64,000 nt of DNA, from positions 2,294,001 through 2,358,000 of the forward strand of contig NZ_CP047156.1 in NCBI RefSeq assembly GCF_009834025.1. The letters run 5' to 3'. The position numbers and the translations under genes are program-made. The DNA is from Epidermidibacterium keratini (lineage in GTDB: Bacteria; Actinomycetota; Actinomycetes; Mycobacteriales; Antricoccaceae). This document shows, in pieces, positions 2,675-50,182 of the stretch; position 1 is the stretch's first letter, and each line of letters opens with the position of its first letter. The notes beneath the pieces were generated by a model. That model did not search any database, was not told where the DNA came from, and saw only the letters and a program-made list of their open reading frames with translations.

Positions 2675-2760
2675 GGCGGTGGCGGTGGGATTTGAACCCA
2701 CGGAGGGGTTGCCTCACACGATTTCGAGTCGTGCTCCTTCGGCCGCTCGGACACGCCACC
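2674..2760 (-). tRNA. tRNA-Ser (anticodon CGA)
   Basis: An 87-nt tRNA with a long variable arm, as in class II serine tRNAs. The acceptor stem GGTGGCG pairs with CGCCACC. The anticodon stem CACGA/TCGTG carries loop CTCGAAA, so the anticodon is CGA and it reads UCG. The T-arm is GTGGG-TTCAAAT-CCCAC. Discriminator G and an encoded CCA end at 2674. I see no gene in the region 2761-2943 that follows on the plus strand. Confidence 0.95.
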
Positions 2761-13773: not shown

Positions 13774-13870
13774 GTCGACCCCTCGTGTGGCGTCACCCTG
13801 TGAACCTCCCCAGGGCCGGAAGGCAGCAAGGATAAACGGGCTCTGGCGGGTACGCGAGGGGTCCCTTTTT
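13774..13870 (+). ncRNA. ffs: Small signal recognition particle RNA (4.5S type) with its terminator
   Basis: The region contains the conserved SRP domain IV: GGCCGGAAGGCAGCAAGG (13814-13831), with the symmetric and asymmetric loops expected for Ffh binding. The ends pair over nine bases (GACCCCTCG 13777-13785 with CGAGGGGTC 13855-13863). A TTTTT run at 13866-13870 ends transcription. A TAGGAT -10-like sequence lies at 13763-13768. The RNA partners with Ffh for co-translational membrane targeting. Placement just upstream of dnaX is common in actinobacteria. The region 13589-14108 holds no protein gene that I can support. Confidence 0.95.
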
Positions 13871-34368: not shown

Positions 34369-34403
34369 TTAGGCTAGCCTAACGGGGTTTAGCCTTACCT
34401 AAC
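34369..34403 (+). promoter_or_regulatory. IdeR/DtxR-type iron box(es)
   Basis: TTAGGCTAGCCTAA (34369-34382) is a perfect 14-base palindrome matching the core of iron boxes. A second related sequence, TTTAGCCTTACCTAAC (34388-34403), follows directly. They lie 34-68 nt before the adenylation-domain gene, so iron-replete IdeR/DtxR would be expected to repress the whole operon. Confidence 0.8.
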
Positions 34404-44115: not shown

Positions 44116-45921
<1,806 letters not shown>

Positions 45922-45979
45922 CTAAGGGATTCTTAGACAGTGTCTAGATCGCTGGATCGACCGGCGCGAATGCCAAACT

Positions 45980-46019
45980 CCGCGACGAGAGTGCCGACCT
46001 TTAGAGGGTCTCGTCGCGG
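45980..46019 (-). promoter_or_regulatory. Hairpin in the leuA leader
   Basis: CCGCGACGAGA (45980-45990) and TCTCGTCGCGG (46009-46019) form an 11-bp perfect stem. On the leuA strand the upstream arm overlaps the last sense codons of the leader peptide. Ribosome position on the Leu run would therefore control this fold. No strong U-tract follows, so the mechanism may be translational or Rho-linked rather than a classical intrinsic terminator. Confidence 0.7.
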
Positions 46020-46054
46020 CGGCTAAGGAGAAGAAGTGCGCCGTACATCGTCAT
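46001..46054 (-). CDS. leuA leader peptide
   Basis: A 17-codon reading frame on the leuA strand: MTMYGALLLLSRRDETL. It has four consecutive Leu codons (CTT CTT CTC CTT) and a fifth at the end, about 145 nt before leuA. A second ATG at 46048 gives MYGALLLL.... A TACTGT -10-like sequence (46057-46062) and TTGACT (46078-46083) lie just upstream, so transcription would begin within a few bases of the start codons, making the transcript leaderless or nearly so. Leu-rich leaders are known for leu genes in several bacteria. Expression level is unknown. Confidence 0.75.
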   Translation of the reverse strand: MTMYGALLLLSRRDETL

Positions 46055-46056
46055 CG

Positions 46057-46083
46057 ACAGTACCCCACCGATGAGGGAGTCAA
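46057..46083 (-). promoter_or_regulatory. Candidate leuA promoter
   Basis: On the minus strand TTGACT (46078-46083) and TACTGT (46057-46062) are separated by 15 nt. The spacing is short but both hexamers are good matches. A start site would fall at about 46048-46051. Confidence 0.45.
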
Positions 46084-46106
46084 AACCAGAGGGCCGATTT
46101 TGCTAG

Positions 46107-46125
46107 TTAGGTAAGCCTAAACTAG
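46107..46125 (+). promoter_or_regulatory. IdeR/DtxR-type iron box of the siderophore-uptake operon
   Basis: TTAGGTAAGCCTAAACTAG matches the 19-base iron-box consensus at about 15 positions. It lies about 105 nt before the binding-protein gene and 24 nt from the leuA -35 candidate on the other strand. It is the second iron box in the window. Confidence 0.8.
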
Positions 46126-46228
46126 GGTGGCGAGGCGGCCGATTACCCATCCGCCCCTCGACTCGCCGTGAAGCGACCTGCGGCTTGTCGGGCAGCTCAC
46201 CGCCGTACCGCCCGAAAGGATAGGCCGC

Positions 46229-47185
46229 ATGTCTCGTCGGATTGCCGCCATAGTTGCGATGTTTGCGACAGCGACGGTCATCGCTGGTTGCAGCTCCACC
46301 CCGGCCAGCGAAGGTGATGGCGACGTCGCACCCGGCTACCCGATCACGATCGAGACCGCGAAAGGTGAGATCACGATCCCGGACAAGCCGAAGCGCGTGG
46401 TGGTCACCAACGGCATCCCGCTGGATCCGTTGCTGGCGCTGGGCATCGAGCCGGTCGCGGTTGATGTCGCGGGAGGAGTCGAGGCTTTTCCTTGGCTGGC
46501 AGACGATCTCGATCCGTCATTGATCGACGATGCGCTCGTCGGCGATGACTTCAAGGCCAACCCTGAGGCAATCGCTACCTATGAACCTGACTTGATCGTT
46601 GCGATCGAGAATGAGGTCAAGGACAAGGCGATCTACGACCAGCTCGCGTCGATCGCGCCCGTCGTCACCGGGCTCGATGCCAATGATTCTTGGGATGTGC
46701 GACTGGCAATGATGGGCGAGGCCGTCGGAGAGAGCGAGAAGGCCGCTGAGCTTGATAAGCAGATCCGCAACGACGCCGCGACGCTCGTCGAGCAGGCTCC
46801 TGGGCTCACAGACGCGACGTACCAGTGGGTTCGCTATGAGGCCGACGGAAATCTGATCATGGGCAACGGCTCCGTCCTTGAGCTGTTCGGCCTGGCGCCA
46901 GGTGACGGGCAGGACAACACAATGAACTCCGGAGCCTCGATCTCCCAGGAGAACCTCGACCAGCTGAACGCCGACGTGGTGGGCATCTGGTGCCGCGCCG
47001 AGTGCGCTCCGTTGACCGCCGATCCACGGTTCGCTTCGCTGCCGGCGGTGCAGAGCGATCTGCTGATCTGGCCCGACCTCCCGTTGGCGACCGCGATGAA
47101 CAGCCCCGGCCCGCTGGCCATCCCTTACGTGATGGAGCAGATCGGTCCGCAGCTCACCGCTGGCGCTGCGCAGCTGACCGGCTAG
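46229..47185 (+). CDS. Siderophore-type ABC transporter substrate-binding lipoprotein
   Basis: 318 residues. The lipoprotein signal ends VIAG-C. The mature protein has the type III periplasmic-binding (FecB/FhuD) pattern: ITIPDKPKRVVVTNGIPLDPLLALGIEPVAVD, NPEAIATYEPDLIVAIENEV, LASIAPVVTG, then a long backbone helix and C-terminal lobe (NGSVLELFGLAPGDGQDNT, ISQENLDQLNADVVGIW). It is expected to capture a ferric siderophore. It is the first gene of a six-gene iron-box operon. Confidence 0.9.
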   Translation: MSRRIAAIVAMFATATVIAGCSSTPASEGDGDVAPGYPITIETAKGEITIPDKPKRVVVTNGIPLDPLLALGIEPVAVDVAGGVEAFPWLADDLDPSLIDDALVGDDFKANPEAIATYEPDLIVAIENEVKDKAIYDQLASIAPVVTGLDANDSWDVRLAMMGEAVGESEKAAELDKQIRNDAATLVEQAPGLTDATYQWVRYEADGNLIMGNGSVLELFGLAPGDGQDNTMNSGASISQENLDQLNADVVGIWCRAECAPLTADPRFASLPAVQSDLLIWPDLPLATAMNSPGPLAIPYVMEQIGPQLTAGAAQLTG

Positions 47186-47193
47186 CCCCCGCC

Positions 47194-48258
47194 GTGTCTG
47201 TCACCGTGACGCGGCGATCCACGCCGACCTCGTCGAGTACGTCGTCGCACACGCGCCGGCGGCTCATCCTTGGGCGCACCGCCGGGGTGGTGTTGGGCCT
47301 GGTCGCGCTCGCACTCGCCGTGCTGGTCAGCGTCGCGGTCGGTTCGAAGCAGATCCCGCTCGACCAGGTGTGGCAGGCACTCACCGGTGCCGGCCTGGCA
47401 GAGGACCGCACCGTGATCTTTGAGCTGCGCCTGCCACGGACCTTGATCGCCATCGCGGTCGGCGCGGCGCTCGGTGTGGCCGGGATGCTCATGCAGGCGC
47501 TGACTCGCAATCCGCTCGCCGATCCGGGCATCCTCGGCGTCAACTCCGGCGCGATGTTTGCTGTCGCGTTAGGCGTGGGATTCTTCGGCGCGAGCAGCAT
47601 GAACGCGATCGTGTGGTGCGCGCTGATCGGTGCCTTCCTGGCAGCTGTCGCGGTGTACGCCGTAGGCTCTGCCGGACGCAGTGAGCAGGGCAATGAGCGG
47701 CTGACGCTCGCCGGCGTCGCGCTCGGCGCCGTACTCGCTGGAGTGACCTCGGCGCTGATCCTCAGTGACGCGACGACCTTCGACCAGCTCCGCGTCTGGC
47801 AAGCGGGATCGGTCGCGGGCCGGCTGCTGAGCGATCTCACCGTGGTGGTGCCGTTTTTGCTCGTCGGCGCCGCACTCGCCCTCGTCGCGAGCGGGCCCCT
47901 GAACGCGATTGCGCTTGGCGACGACGTTGCGCGCGGGCTCGGCACCCGGGTGGGTCTTGTACGAGTCATCGTCGTACTCGCCGTGACGCTGCTGGCCGGC
48001 GGTGCGACCGCGATTGCCGGGCCCGTCGCGTTTATCGGGTTGATGACGCCGCACATTGCGCGCTGGATCGTCGGCGTCGACCAACGCTGGATCCTCGTGA
48101 TGAGCATGATCTGCGCGGCACTGTTGATGGTCGCCTCCGACGTCGTGGGCCGGGTCATCGCTCGTCCGCAGGAGATCCCGGTCGGCATCGTGACCGCGTT
48201 TGTCGGGGCACCGGTGCTGATGGTGCTGGTACGGCGCCGTAGGGCGAGTGCATCGTGA
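47194..48258 (+). CDS. FecCD-family iron-siderophore permease 1
   Basis: 354 residues from GTG 47194 (GTG 47206 also possible). BtuC/FecCD motifs are LRLPRTLIAIAVGAALGVAGMLMQALTRNPLADPGILGVNSGA, ALGDDVARGLGTRVGLVRVI and GPVAFIGLMTPHIARWIVG. About nine to ten hydrophobic segments are visible. It likely forms a heterodimer with the next gene product, which it overlaps by 4 nt (GTGA). Confidence 0.93.
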   Translation: MSVTVTRRSTPTSSSTSSHTRRRLILGRTAGVVLGLVALALAVLVSVAVGSKQIPLDQVWQALTGAGLAEDRTVIFELRLPRTLIAIAVGAALGVAGMLMQALTRNPLADPGILGVNSGAMFAVALGVGFFGASSMNAIVWCALIGAFLAAVAVYAVGSAGRSEQGNERLTLAGVALGAVLAGVTSALILSDATTFDQLRVWQAGSVAGRLLSDLTVVVPFLLVGAALALVASGPLNAIALGDDVARGLGTRVGLVRVIVVLAVTLLAGGATAIAGPVAFIGLMTPHIARWIVGVDQRWILVMSMICAALLMVASDVVGRVIARPQEIPVGIVTAFVGAPVLMVLVRRRRASAS

Positions 48259-49337
48259 GTACGACGACCCGGGTGACACCGGCGACGACAGAGAGTACGG
48301 CGCCGCGTCCGTCATGGGAGCTCCACCGCTTCGGGCTCGACGTGCGCGTGTCGATCCGAAGCGTGGTGGTGTGCGGCGTACTCGTCGCGGCGGCCGTGCT
48401 GGCCGCAATGCTCGCGCTGCGAATCGGGGACTACCCGCTCACGCTTGCCCAGGTCGCCGGAAGCCTGCTCGGCCAGGAGGATGGGTTCGCGGCCACGGTC
48501 GTCGTCGAGTGGCGGCTGCCGCGGGCGTTCGGGGCGTTGATTTTCGGTGCGGCGCTTGGGGTTTCCGGCGCGATGTTCCAAAGCCTGACCCGTAATCCCC
48601 TTGGCTCGCCGGACATCATCGGCTTCACCACGGGCTCCTACACCGGCGCACTCATCGTGATCATCTTCGCCGGCGGCGGCTTCTACGCGATCGCCACCGG
48701 ATCACTGGTCGGGGGACTGCTCACTGCCGTTGCCGTCTACGCCTTCGCCTACCGGCGCGGCGTGACCAGCTTCCGGCTGATCATCGTCGGCATCGGCATG
48801 ACCGCGATGCTCAACGCGTTCAACACCTACCTGCTGATGCGCGCTGAACGGGAGGTCGCGCTCGCCGGAGCGACGTGGGGCGCCGGCTCGGTCAGCGGAC
48901 TCGCCTGGTCGCAGGTCGCGCCGGTGAGTGCCCTGCTGCTCGCCGCGTTTGCCCTGGCCGCACTGGTGTCTCGGCCCATGCGCGCCAGCGAGCTCGGCGA
49001 TGATGCCGCGAGTGCGCTCGGTGTCAACGTCGAACGCACTCGGCTCGCCGTCGTGGTCGTCGCGGTCGCGCTGACCGCGCTCGTGACTGCCGTCGCGGGA
49101 CCGATCGCGTTCGTCGCGCTGGCTGCACCGCAACTTGCCCGCCGGTTGACCGGGTCGGCGGGGGTGACGCTGGCTGCCTCGGCGGCGATGGGCGCGCTGC
49201 TGCTGTCGGTCTCAGATCTCATCGCGCAGAACCTCCTCGCCAACCTGCCCGTCGGGGTCGTCACCGTTTCGGTGGGTGGGCTGTATCTGGTGTGGCTGCT
49301 CGTCATGGAGACTCGTCGGCGGTCAGTACGCCGATGA
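48255..49337 (+). CDS. FecCD-family iron-siderophore permease 2
   Basis: 360 residues from GTG 48255. It has WRLPRAFGALIFGAALGVSGAMFQSLTRNPLGSPDIIGFTTGSYTGA, ELGDDAASALGVNVERTRLAV and GPIAFVALAAPQLARRLTG. The second permease of FecCD heterodimers usually reads SPDIIGF as here. It is coupled upstream and downstream by 4-nt overlaps. Confidence 0.93.
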   Translation: MSTTTRVTPATTESTAPRPSWELHRFGLDVRVSIRSVVVCGVLVAAAVLAAMLALRIGDYPLTLAQVAGSLLGQEDGFAATVVVEWRLPRAFGALIFGAALGVSGAMFQSLTRNPLGSPDIIGFTTGSYTGALIVIIFAGGGFYAIATGSLVGGLLTAVAVYAFAYRRGVTSFRLIIVGIGMTAMLNAFNTYLLMRAEREVALAGATWGAGSVSGLAWSQVAPVSALLLAAFALAALVSRPMRASELGDDAASALGVNVERTRLAVVVVAVALTALVTAVAGPIAFVALAAPQLARRLTGSAGVTLAASAAMGALLLSVSDLIAQNLLANLPVGVVTVSVGGLYLVWLLVMETRRRSVRR

Positions 49338-50182
49338 CGCGAACGGGAGCGCACCACGTGGACGACGAGATGGGTACGGCGCCGCTGCAGGCCGTCGACG
49401 CCACGATTGGCTACGACCAGCGGGTGATCAGCGAGGGTTTGTCGCTGGATATCCCGGCCGGCTCGTTCACGGTGATCGTCGGCCCGAACGCGTGCGGCAA
49501 GTCGACCCTGCTGCGTGCCCTCGCTCGGCTGCTTCGCCCAAGTGCGGGGACGGTGCTGCTGGATGGCAAGTCGATTGCGGCGTACCGCTCCAAGGAGGTG
49601 GCGCGCCGCCTCGGGTTGCTGCCGCAGACGGCTCAGGCACCAGAAGGCATCCGGGTTGGCGAGCTCGTGGCGCGCGGACGCTACCCGCACCAACGTCTGG
49701 TGCGGCAGTGGAGCCACGACGACGAAGAGGCGGTCGAAGCGGCCATGGCCGCGACCGGGGTCAGCGACCTCTCGGCGCGTCCCGTGGAGGAACTCTCCGG
49801 TGGGCAGCGGCAACGGGTCTGGGTCGCGATGGCGCTGGCCCAGCAGACGGATCTGCTGCTGCTCGACGAGCCCACGACCTTCCTGGACATTGCTCACCAG
49901 CTTGAGCTGATGGAGCTGTTTGCCCGTCTGCATCGTCGCGGTCACACGTTGGTCGCCGTACTGCACGACCTTGGGCACGCTGCCCGCTACGCCACGCACG
50001 TCGTCGCCATGCGTGACGGGGCGGTGGTCGCGGCAGGCCCTCCGCAGGAGGTCATCACGGCCGATCTCATCGAGCAGGTATTCGGGCTGCGCGCGCTCGT
50101 CGTGCCCGATCCGGTGACCCGTACGCCGATGGTCGTGCCGCTCCGCCCCGAAGGCGTGGCCGATGAGCCGGACCCGCGGTGA
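49334..50182 (+). CDS. Iron-siderophore ABC transporter ATP-binding protein
   Basis: 282 residues from ATG 49334 (ATGA overlap); GTG 49358 and ATG 49370 are alternatives that keep the domain. All motifs are intact: Walker A VGPNACGKSTLL, Q-loop LLPQTAQAPEGI, signature ELSGGQRQRVWVAMALAQ, Walker B LLLLDEPTTFLD and H-loop VLHDLGHAARYA. It belongs to the FepC/FecE class and energises the FecCD permeases. Confidence 0.94.
   Translation: MTRTGAHHVDDEMGTAPLQAVDATIGYDQRVISEGLSLDIPAGSFTVIVGPNACGKSTLLRALARLLRPSAGTVLLDGKSIAAYRSKEVARRLGLLPQTAQAPEGIRVGELVARGRYPHQRLVRQWSHDDEEAVEAAMAATGVSDLSARPVEELSGGQRQRVWVAMALAQQTDLLLLDEPTTFLDIAHQLELMELFARLHRRGHTLVAVLHDLGHAARYATHVVAMRDGAVVAAGPPQEVITADLIEQVFGLRALVVPDPVTRTPMVVPLRPEGVADEPDPR

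Follow-up and report, generated by a model that had tools for sequence, protein, structure and literature searches.

A LEU element with a probably leaderless leucine-codon leader upstream of leuA in Epidermidibacterium keratini, and its scaffold with other codon runs before other genes

The LEU element at the leuA locus

The window, a stretch of 64,000 nucleotides of the Epidermidibacterium keratini contig NZ_CP047156.1, carries leuA on the minus strand, preceded by a short Leu-rich open reading frame, a hairpin (P1) and two strands able to form a pseudoknot (Table 1). The loop of P1 is 18 nt long and holds the last sense codon of the leader together with its UAA, while the 5' arm consists of the leader codons 3' of the Leu run. 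P1 lies 124 nt from the leuA ATG, and 90 nt separate the pseudoknot 3' strand (45959) from the leuA Shine-Dalgarno (SD) sequence (45868). This element is the LEU element known upstream of actinobacterial leuA. The first-pass annotation had described a Leu-rich leader with four consecutive Leu codons before leuA, an 11-bp perfect hairpin, and a TACTGT hexamer 2 nt from ATG 46054 and 8 nt from ATG 46048, all of which are present, with CTT CTT CTC CTT at 46036-46025, the 5' arm of the hairpin drawn from the codons after the Leu run, and the last sense codon in the loop. It overlooked the pseudoknot and the potential of the Leu codons to pair with the leuA SD.

Table 1. Features of the leuA upstream region, in window coordinates
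Feature	Position	Strand	Remarks
leuA, 2-isopropylmalate synthase	44116-45855	(-)	HMGL-like, IPMS_D2 and LeuA_dimer domains; ATG at 45855
leuA Shine-Dalgarno GGAGAG	45863-45868	(-)	sequence
Pseudoknot 3' strand GCCGGUC	45959-45965	(-)	7 possible pairs, two G-U; equally long alternative register exists
3' arm of hairpin P1	45980-45990	(-)	11 bp, perfect; covariation
Pseudoknot 5' strand GGUCGGC, in P1 loop	45993-45999	(-)	sequence and clade pairing test
5' arm of hairpin P1	46009-46019	(-)	11 bp, perfect; covariation
Leader ORF, 15 codons MYGALLLLSRRDETL plus UAA, most likely start ATG 46048	46001-46048	(-)	sequence and conserved spacing
Four Leu codons CTT CTT CTC CTT	46025-46036	(-)	sequence
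UUCUCC inside the Leu run, complementary to the leuA SD	46027-46032	(-)	6 contiguous pairs, one G-U
17-codon version of the leader ORF	ATG 46054 to stop ending 46001	(-)	in frame with ATG 46048
-10-like hexamer TACTGT	46057-46062	(-)	8 nt before ATG 46048, 2 nt before ATG 46054

Several other features lie in the window. An operator-like palindrome, TAGACAGTGTCTA, occupies 45934-45946 between the LEU element and leuA, and among 258 loci it is present only in the two copies of this genome's own region. The palindromes TTAGGTAAGCCTAA and TTAGGCTAGCCTAA, at 46107-46120 (+) and 34369-34402, are iron-box-like, of the DtxR/IdeR kind; the iron-box pattern (up to one mismatch, both strands counted) matches 4 times in the window against 0.01 expected. 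The palindrome at 46107-46120 precedes open reading frames at 46229-50182 that, by eye, look like a siderophore-binding lipoprotein, permeases, and an ATPase. An Rfam scan of the whole window at the gathering threshold returned only a small SRP RNA at 13774-13869 (+) and a tRNA at 2677-2760 (-).

By itself, a perfect 11-bp hairpin is not rare enough to exclude chance: the window has 14 overlapping hits, clustered at 7 places, compared with 1-4 for ten order-1 Markov windows. Small open reading frames containing LLLL occur twice in the window, against 0 or 1 times in ten such simulated sequences. The segment 45955-46048 folds better than its shuffles (z -2.3; 5 of 200 shuffles equally good). 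In its minimum-energy fold, with no pseudoknots allowed, P1 forms, and the pseudoknot 3' strand is base-paired to leader sequence immediately 5' of the Leu run.

Upstream regions were collected for 110 leuA loci, comprising 30 that include the window's own and 80 from named contigs, and a hairpin adjoining a CT-rich run was found by pattern match in 104 of them, one visibly misplaced (L075). An alignment (A1) and a model (R1) were built from 81 of these 104 leaders, the window being one of the 81. In A1, 99.4% of P1 cells pair, and both sides vary in 6 of the 11 stem pairs, a count reached in 3 of 500 shuffles. The window site scores 71.4 bits against R1, as one of its training sequences. At E <= 0.01 with strict filters, R1 has matches in nearly all genomes of the window's order (292 of 298) and class (285 of 296). 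In a sample of 396 genomes from the phylum it matches 52, of which 14 lie outside the class; 10 of the 40 phylum-survey places examined are chance-like, with no such leader before a leu gene (L149, L160, L162, L166-L172). The element is not a chance arrangement, since it is conserved across order and class and P1 covaries, where the hairpin by itself would hardly suffice. The first-pass annotation had proposed a comparison with related genomes, and the Leu run and hairpin are indeed kept there; in the same-family relatives L002-L005 the run, the stem and the start are all retained. Three nearly complete genomes of the class, all of family f97 (G685, G705, G720), have no R1 match, and in that lineage the LEU element may have been lost or changed.

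The start of the leader shows an equally recurrent arrangement. With a scan allowing 4-9 nt and about two candidate starts per leader, a TANNNT hexamer stands 6-9 nt before an in-frame start in 93 of the 104 leuA leaders, including the window's (6 nt in 46, 7 in 29, 8 in 8, and 9 in 10), compared with 10 of 574 start-like triplets farther upstream, and an SD-like motif occurs in only 7 of the 93. ATG 46048, and hence MYGALLLLSRRDETL, is taken as the start because its 8-nt spacing falls within this range, whereas ATG 46054, at 2 nt, falls outside it and was rejected. The 17-codon frame originally described thus exists, but the likelier leader has 15 codons. The relatives L002-L005 also have the MY... 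start, and three of them (L002-L004) offer an equally suitable GTG one codon further upstream, at 5 nt from the hexamer. The window leader is most likely leaderless, with a transcript beginning at or beside the leader AUG, as the first-pass annotation had proposed; the spacing from hexamer to start is conserved, and leaderless transcription is reported for the leuA leader of S. lividans (PMC8079986).

Pairing within leuA leaders and the level of control

Pairing was assessed by a swap test, comparing the duplex energy of two segments of each leader with that of exchanged partners in 106 of the 110 leuA loci; misplaced automatic picks (e.g. L075, L074) were left in, and the leuA and LeuA_dimer starts were chosen by script. 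For the pseudoknot, formed between the P1 loop and the sequence after P1, true partners outperform swapped ones (z -7.1; -3.9 with GC-matched swaps), and in the window it may form with 7 pairs, two of them G-U, as in the LEU element. For the Leu run and the leuA SD the values are -4.0 and, GC-matched, -3.4, against controls of 0.0 for the run with the segment upstream of the SD, -0.2 for the run with the start region, and 0.2 for the 5' arm with the SD. The signal of the run falls to z -1.5 (p 0.07) after thinning to 42 of the 106 leaders (<80% identity), and other segments co-vary with the SD as well, namely the part 5' of the run (z -3.75), the P1 3' arm (-2.1), and the P1 loop (-1.8).

Folding ensembles were computed for 103 leuA leaders. 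When the leader is covered up to P1, the unpaired probability of the SD rises from 0.18 to 0.39 (73 up, 13 down), and covering just the part 5' of the run gives no rise (0.15). SD exposure rises on covering in the window's four family relatives L002-L005, and it stays flat in the window's own leader when the run is covered (0.262 to 0.263; 0.244 to 0.240 for another SD segment). The six contiguous pairs between run and SD are possible in the window, yet its fold ensemble does not use them. Sequestration of the SD is therefore a step that the modelling supports for the clade and that is unproven for the window member. This separation of run and SD in the window's own fold would suit a leader whose translation brings ribosomes to leuA, or a relic leader, with no Leu-specific control in this organism and with leuA set by DNA-binding regulators; NdgR is reported to bind weakly near leuA in S. 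coelicolor (PMC4340878). Such a role is very unlikely, since run, stem and start are kept in L002-L005 and Leu specificity is kept across leuA leaders.

No intrinsic terminator was detected in 45840-46240 by a scan of 3-8 nt loops. P1, whose 18-nt loop lies beyond that scan, was inspected visually; the sequence after it, AGTTTGG, has no T run, and P1 was rejected as an intrinsic terminator on that account. Translational attenuation is accordingly the best reading, because no terminator is seen and the Leu run co-varies with the SD. In a transcriptional version, the same leader and pseudoknot would govern premature termination, which would probably be Rho-dependent given that no intrinsic terminator is seen, and a ribosome stalled on the Leu codons would hide a Rho entry or pause site. 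A leader peptide with alternative pairing is the classical layout of such control, 124 nt are available between P1 and leuA, and M. tuberculosis ilvB1 is described as a case of transcription attenuation (PMC13236596). We nevertheless regard this version as unlikely, since the scan revealed no terminator-like site, the S. lividans leuA leader is likewise reported without a typical terminator (PMC8079986), and the co-variation of Leu run and SD points to translation. The first-pass annotation had proposed attenuation without a ribosome-binding site for the leader; the probably leaderless Leu leader stands, whereas control of translation is likelier than classical transcription attenuation, because P1 contributes one half of a pseudoknot and the SD is a possible partner of the Leu run. 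Attenuation lacking a leader ribosome-binding site is not a new idea, as a 2000 paper on C. glutamicum ilvBNC reportedly names it already in its title.

The compact, conserved pseudoknot could also recall a riboswitch, sensing leucine or another small molecule directly, or a T-box. We consider this extremely improbable, as no Rfam family, including T-box and riboswitches, scores above threshold at the element, either in the window or in six related loci, and coding-frame conservation and codon swaps have no place in such a scheme.

Codon runs and the genes downstream

Beyond the main leuA genes, R1 also matches before leuC, leuB, second leuA copies, and a small protein of ~130-170 aa. The leuC matches belong to one family (L142 by NCBIfam, L144 by aconitase family, L151 with the genome's leuC matched there, and L153 by likeness), and the five leuB matches (L148, L159, L265, L266, L273) all have ilvE next, above the NCBIfam cut-off. 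Second, more divergent leuA copies with a LEU element of their own were seen at L143, L147, L157, L178, L260 and L263. Among five examples of the small protein compared with the LeuA_dimer domain of Pfam, two score above the cut-off, one below, and two have no match; with one such protein as query, 87 of the 101 genomes searched in its family gave matches, part of which were the end of an ordinary LeuA. From open frames, 78 stand-alone LeuA_dimer loci were chosen, two with frames >440 aa, and 74 of them (among L154, L155, L158, L161, L163 and L181-L258) carry a LEU-type scaffold with a Val-codon leader, such as MKRVLVVHRRSGV, MTRILVVRRRSGV, and MQRIQVVVHRRSGV; the hairpin finder gave a bonus for Val-like codons, and the remaining four (L249, L256, L257, L258) lack the hairpin. 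Genes for tRNA-Gly/Cys/Val stand beside three of six LeuA_dimer loci scanned (L188, L201, L209). The -10-like spacing recurs in Val-type leaders, with TANNNT correctly placed in 54 of 64, 3 of them having an SD-like motif, against 9 of 350 control triplets.

Detection was also performed blind to codons, requiring a hairpin and a leaderless open reading frame with TANNNT and imposing no codon rule. This yielded 89 leaders from 110 leuA loci (11 lost for want of a hairpin and 10 of a leaderless frame), 7 from 31 leuB loci (20 and 4 lost), and 48 from 78 LeuA_dimer loci (13 and 17 lost). Every leuA leader contains LL (89/89), and any Ile or Val among the four run codons is found in 4/89; the leuB leaders have LL in 0/7 and Ile or Val in 7/7, and the LeuA_dimer leaders have Val in 48/48, with LL also in 8. 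For Ile/Val against leuA, Fisher p is 3e-8 for leuB and 1e-32 for LeuA_dimer, with relatedness still contained in both values. A separate scan with a branched-chain codon rule located the element in 7 of the 30 best-matching leuB and 1 of the 30 best-matching leuC loci, against 4/300 in a shuffled control and with the upstream region misplaced or missing in L280, L283 and L318. An adjoining ilvE does not clearly separate leuB loci with the element (8/8) from those without (16/22), a ninth leuB leader locus (L296 by list place), where ilvE adjoins too, being counted in this comparison as without. The new observation here is the presence of the LEU scaffold before leuB-ilvE, with mixed Ile/Leu/Val codons, and before the stand-alone LeuA_dimer gene, with Val codons.

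The choice of synonymous codons is also distinctive. In the leaders, 282 of 349 Leu codons are CTT or CTC, whereas the leuA genes on the named contigs use these two for 1159 of 3241, and 86 of 172 leader Val codons are GTA, compared with 0 of 123 in 30 LeuA_dimer genes.

Val-type leaders show pairing between the Val run and the spacer that directly follows P1 on its 3' side (z -7.3; -5.3 GC-matched). In an alignment of 51 of the 74 LeuA_dimer leaders (A2), this run:spacer helix pairs in 70% of cells and both sides vary in 5 of 8 pairs, the third base of the second Val codon forming U-A in 16 sequences and A-U in 11 and being unpaired in 21. The pseudoknot is kept as well (92% of A2 cells; z -10.0), and the spacer is the strand that the pseudoknot stretches across P1, so run:spacer pairing and pseudoknot would be expected to exclude each other. 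Pairing of the Val run with the SD is not supported in the Val type (z -1.5). The pseudoknot 3' side and the SD give z -4.3 by duplex energy with non-overlapping segments (-4.3 GC-matched), and by contiguous helix length this pairing is unsupported (z 1.2). In the folding test, where the pseudoknot cannot be modelled, covering the run gives no SD release in 63 leaders (0.257 to 0.243; 7 up, 14 down). A model of the Val type (R2) matches 27 of 118 class genomes and also picks up leuA-type elements; 13 R2 places examined comprise 8 leuA or leuA copies, 2 leuB, and 3 without gene assignment.

These codon runs bear directly on whether the leader codons are read by a ribosome or the RNA shape is bound by a protein, two possibilities that natural codon swaps separate in the manner of natural mutants. 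Control by a regulatory protein able to melt or lock the pseudoknot, with the Leu codons not acting as a sensor, was the preference of the 2005 authors, who had the ML1624 family in mind, and would agree with the strong sequence conservation of P1 and with the reported insensitivity of S. coelicolor to leader-codon mutation (PMC1262725). We find it quite improbable, given that the codon run varies with the downstream gene on a constant scaffold, that the leader frame, the stop in or by the loop, and the leaderless start all recur, and that third-base changes between GTT and GTA are compensated in the Val type. A ribosome sensor is favoured over protein binding because codon-blind detection still gives gene-matched codon runs, and this match likewise argues that the leader codons are read by the ribosome. 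The same scaffold with Val or mixed codons before other genes suggests a stalled ribosome as the sensor. The anatomy, the conservation, the pairing of P1 and of the pseudoknot across the clade, the leaderless spacing and the gene-matched codon content are direct observations.

Proposed mechanism and comparison with known systems

We consider it rather probable that the element is a leaderless Leu-codon LEU element controlling leuA by ribosome-mediated translational attenuation; the stalling, the direction of the response and the placement of control on translation rather than transcription are what we infer. Transcription would start at or next to the leader AUG, and a ribosome would load on the bare 5' end and translate MYGALLLLSRRDETL. 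When charged tRNA-Leu is plentiful, the ribosome would pass the Leu codons and depart, after which the leader would refold: P1 and the loop-to-3' pseudoknot would form and the CU-rich Leu codons would pair with the leuA SD, giving low leuA translation. When Leu is scarce, the ribosome would stall on the Leu codons and cover them, leaving the SD free and leuA translated. Ribosome protection of a leuA uORF is reported in M. abscessus (PMC4974804).

On a broader scale, the balance of our judgement favours a modular family of leaderless branched-chain-amino-acid translational attenuators, in which one scaffold (11-bp hairpin, stop in the loop, loop-to-3' pseudoknot) carries gene-specific codon runs and is re-addressed by codon swaps. 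The run would consist of Leu codons at leuA and leuC, of a mixture of Ile, Leu and Val codons at leuB-ilvE, and mostly of (Ile/Val/Leu)-Leu-Val-Val at the stand-alone LeuA_dimer gene. In the Val type, the Val codons would pair with the spacer needed by the pseudoknot, and a ribosome held on them would allow the pseudoknot to form, releasing the SD.

The mechanism of the LEU element has been unsettled since 1999-2005, with leader codons, a pseudoknot and paradoxical mutants to reconcile, and the codon swaps open it to direct testing. For the leuA leader of S. coelicolor, mutations (Craster 1999) were reported not to fit classical attenuation, as related in PMC1262725. As a proposed explanation, these codon mutants may have looked paradoxical because the Leu codons would be sensor and anti-SD at once, so that changing them would break both.

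Among other leuA leaders, LeuL1 of S. lividans TK24, MRFGLLLLSCRGEGL, is reported as leaderless and without a typical terminator, and its start was mapped by RNA sequencing (PMC8079986), whereas the start in the window is deduced from sequence. The C. glutamicum leuA leader, with four consecutive Leu codons (PMC4046766), and that of C. diphtheriae, MNRANLLLLRRGGSQA, also with four Leu codons (PMC5784534), are both presented as attenuators. The ilvB leader attenuators likewise have a uORF with branched-chain codons and differ, as described, in their terminator/antiterminator stems and in being a different RNA (PMC10272879, PMC13236596). In the cysteine genes of M. smegmatis, as cited in PMC13236596, pairing of a uORF with downstream sequence hides the SD and stalling unmasks it; that system responds to a different amino acid, cysteine, and no LEU-type pseudoknot is mentioned in that account of it.

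The closest relative is the LEU element of Seliverstov et al. 2005 (PMC1262725), which is described with a Leu-run leader open reading frame, a hairpin and a pseudoknot before leuA, as in the window, and with a stem between the run and the SD, for which the window has pairing potential. That paper leaned towards a regulatory protein and gave the element before leuA and in one transposase. No earlier description of codon-swapped LEU-type leaders was found in the open-access literature, most subscription papers lying outside this scope. Beyond the element as given in 2005, the scaffold also stands here before leuB-ilvE, leuC, and the stand-alone LeuA_dimer gene, with the codons changed in two of these settings.
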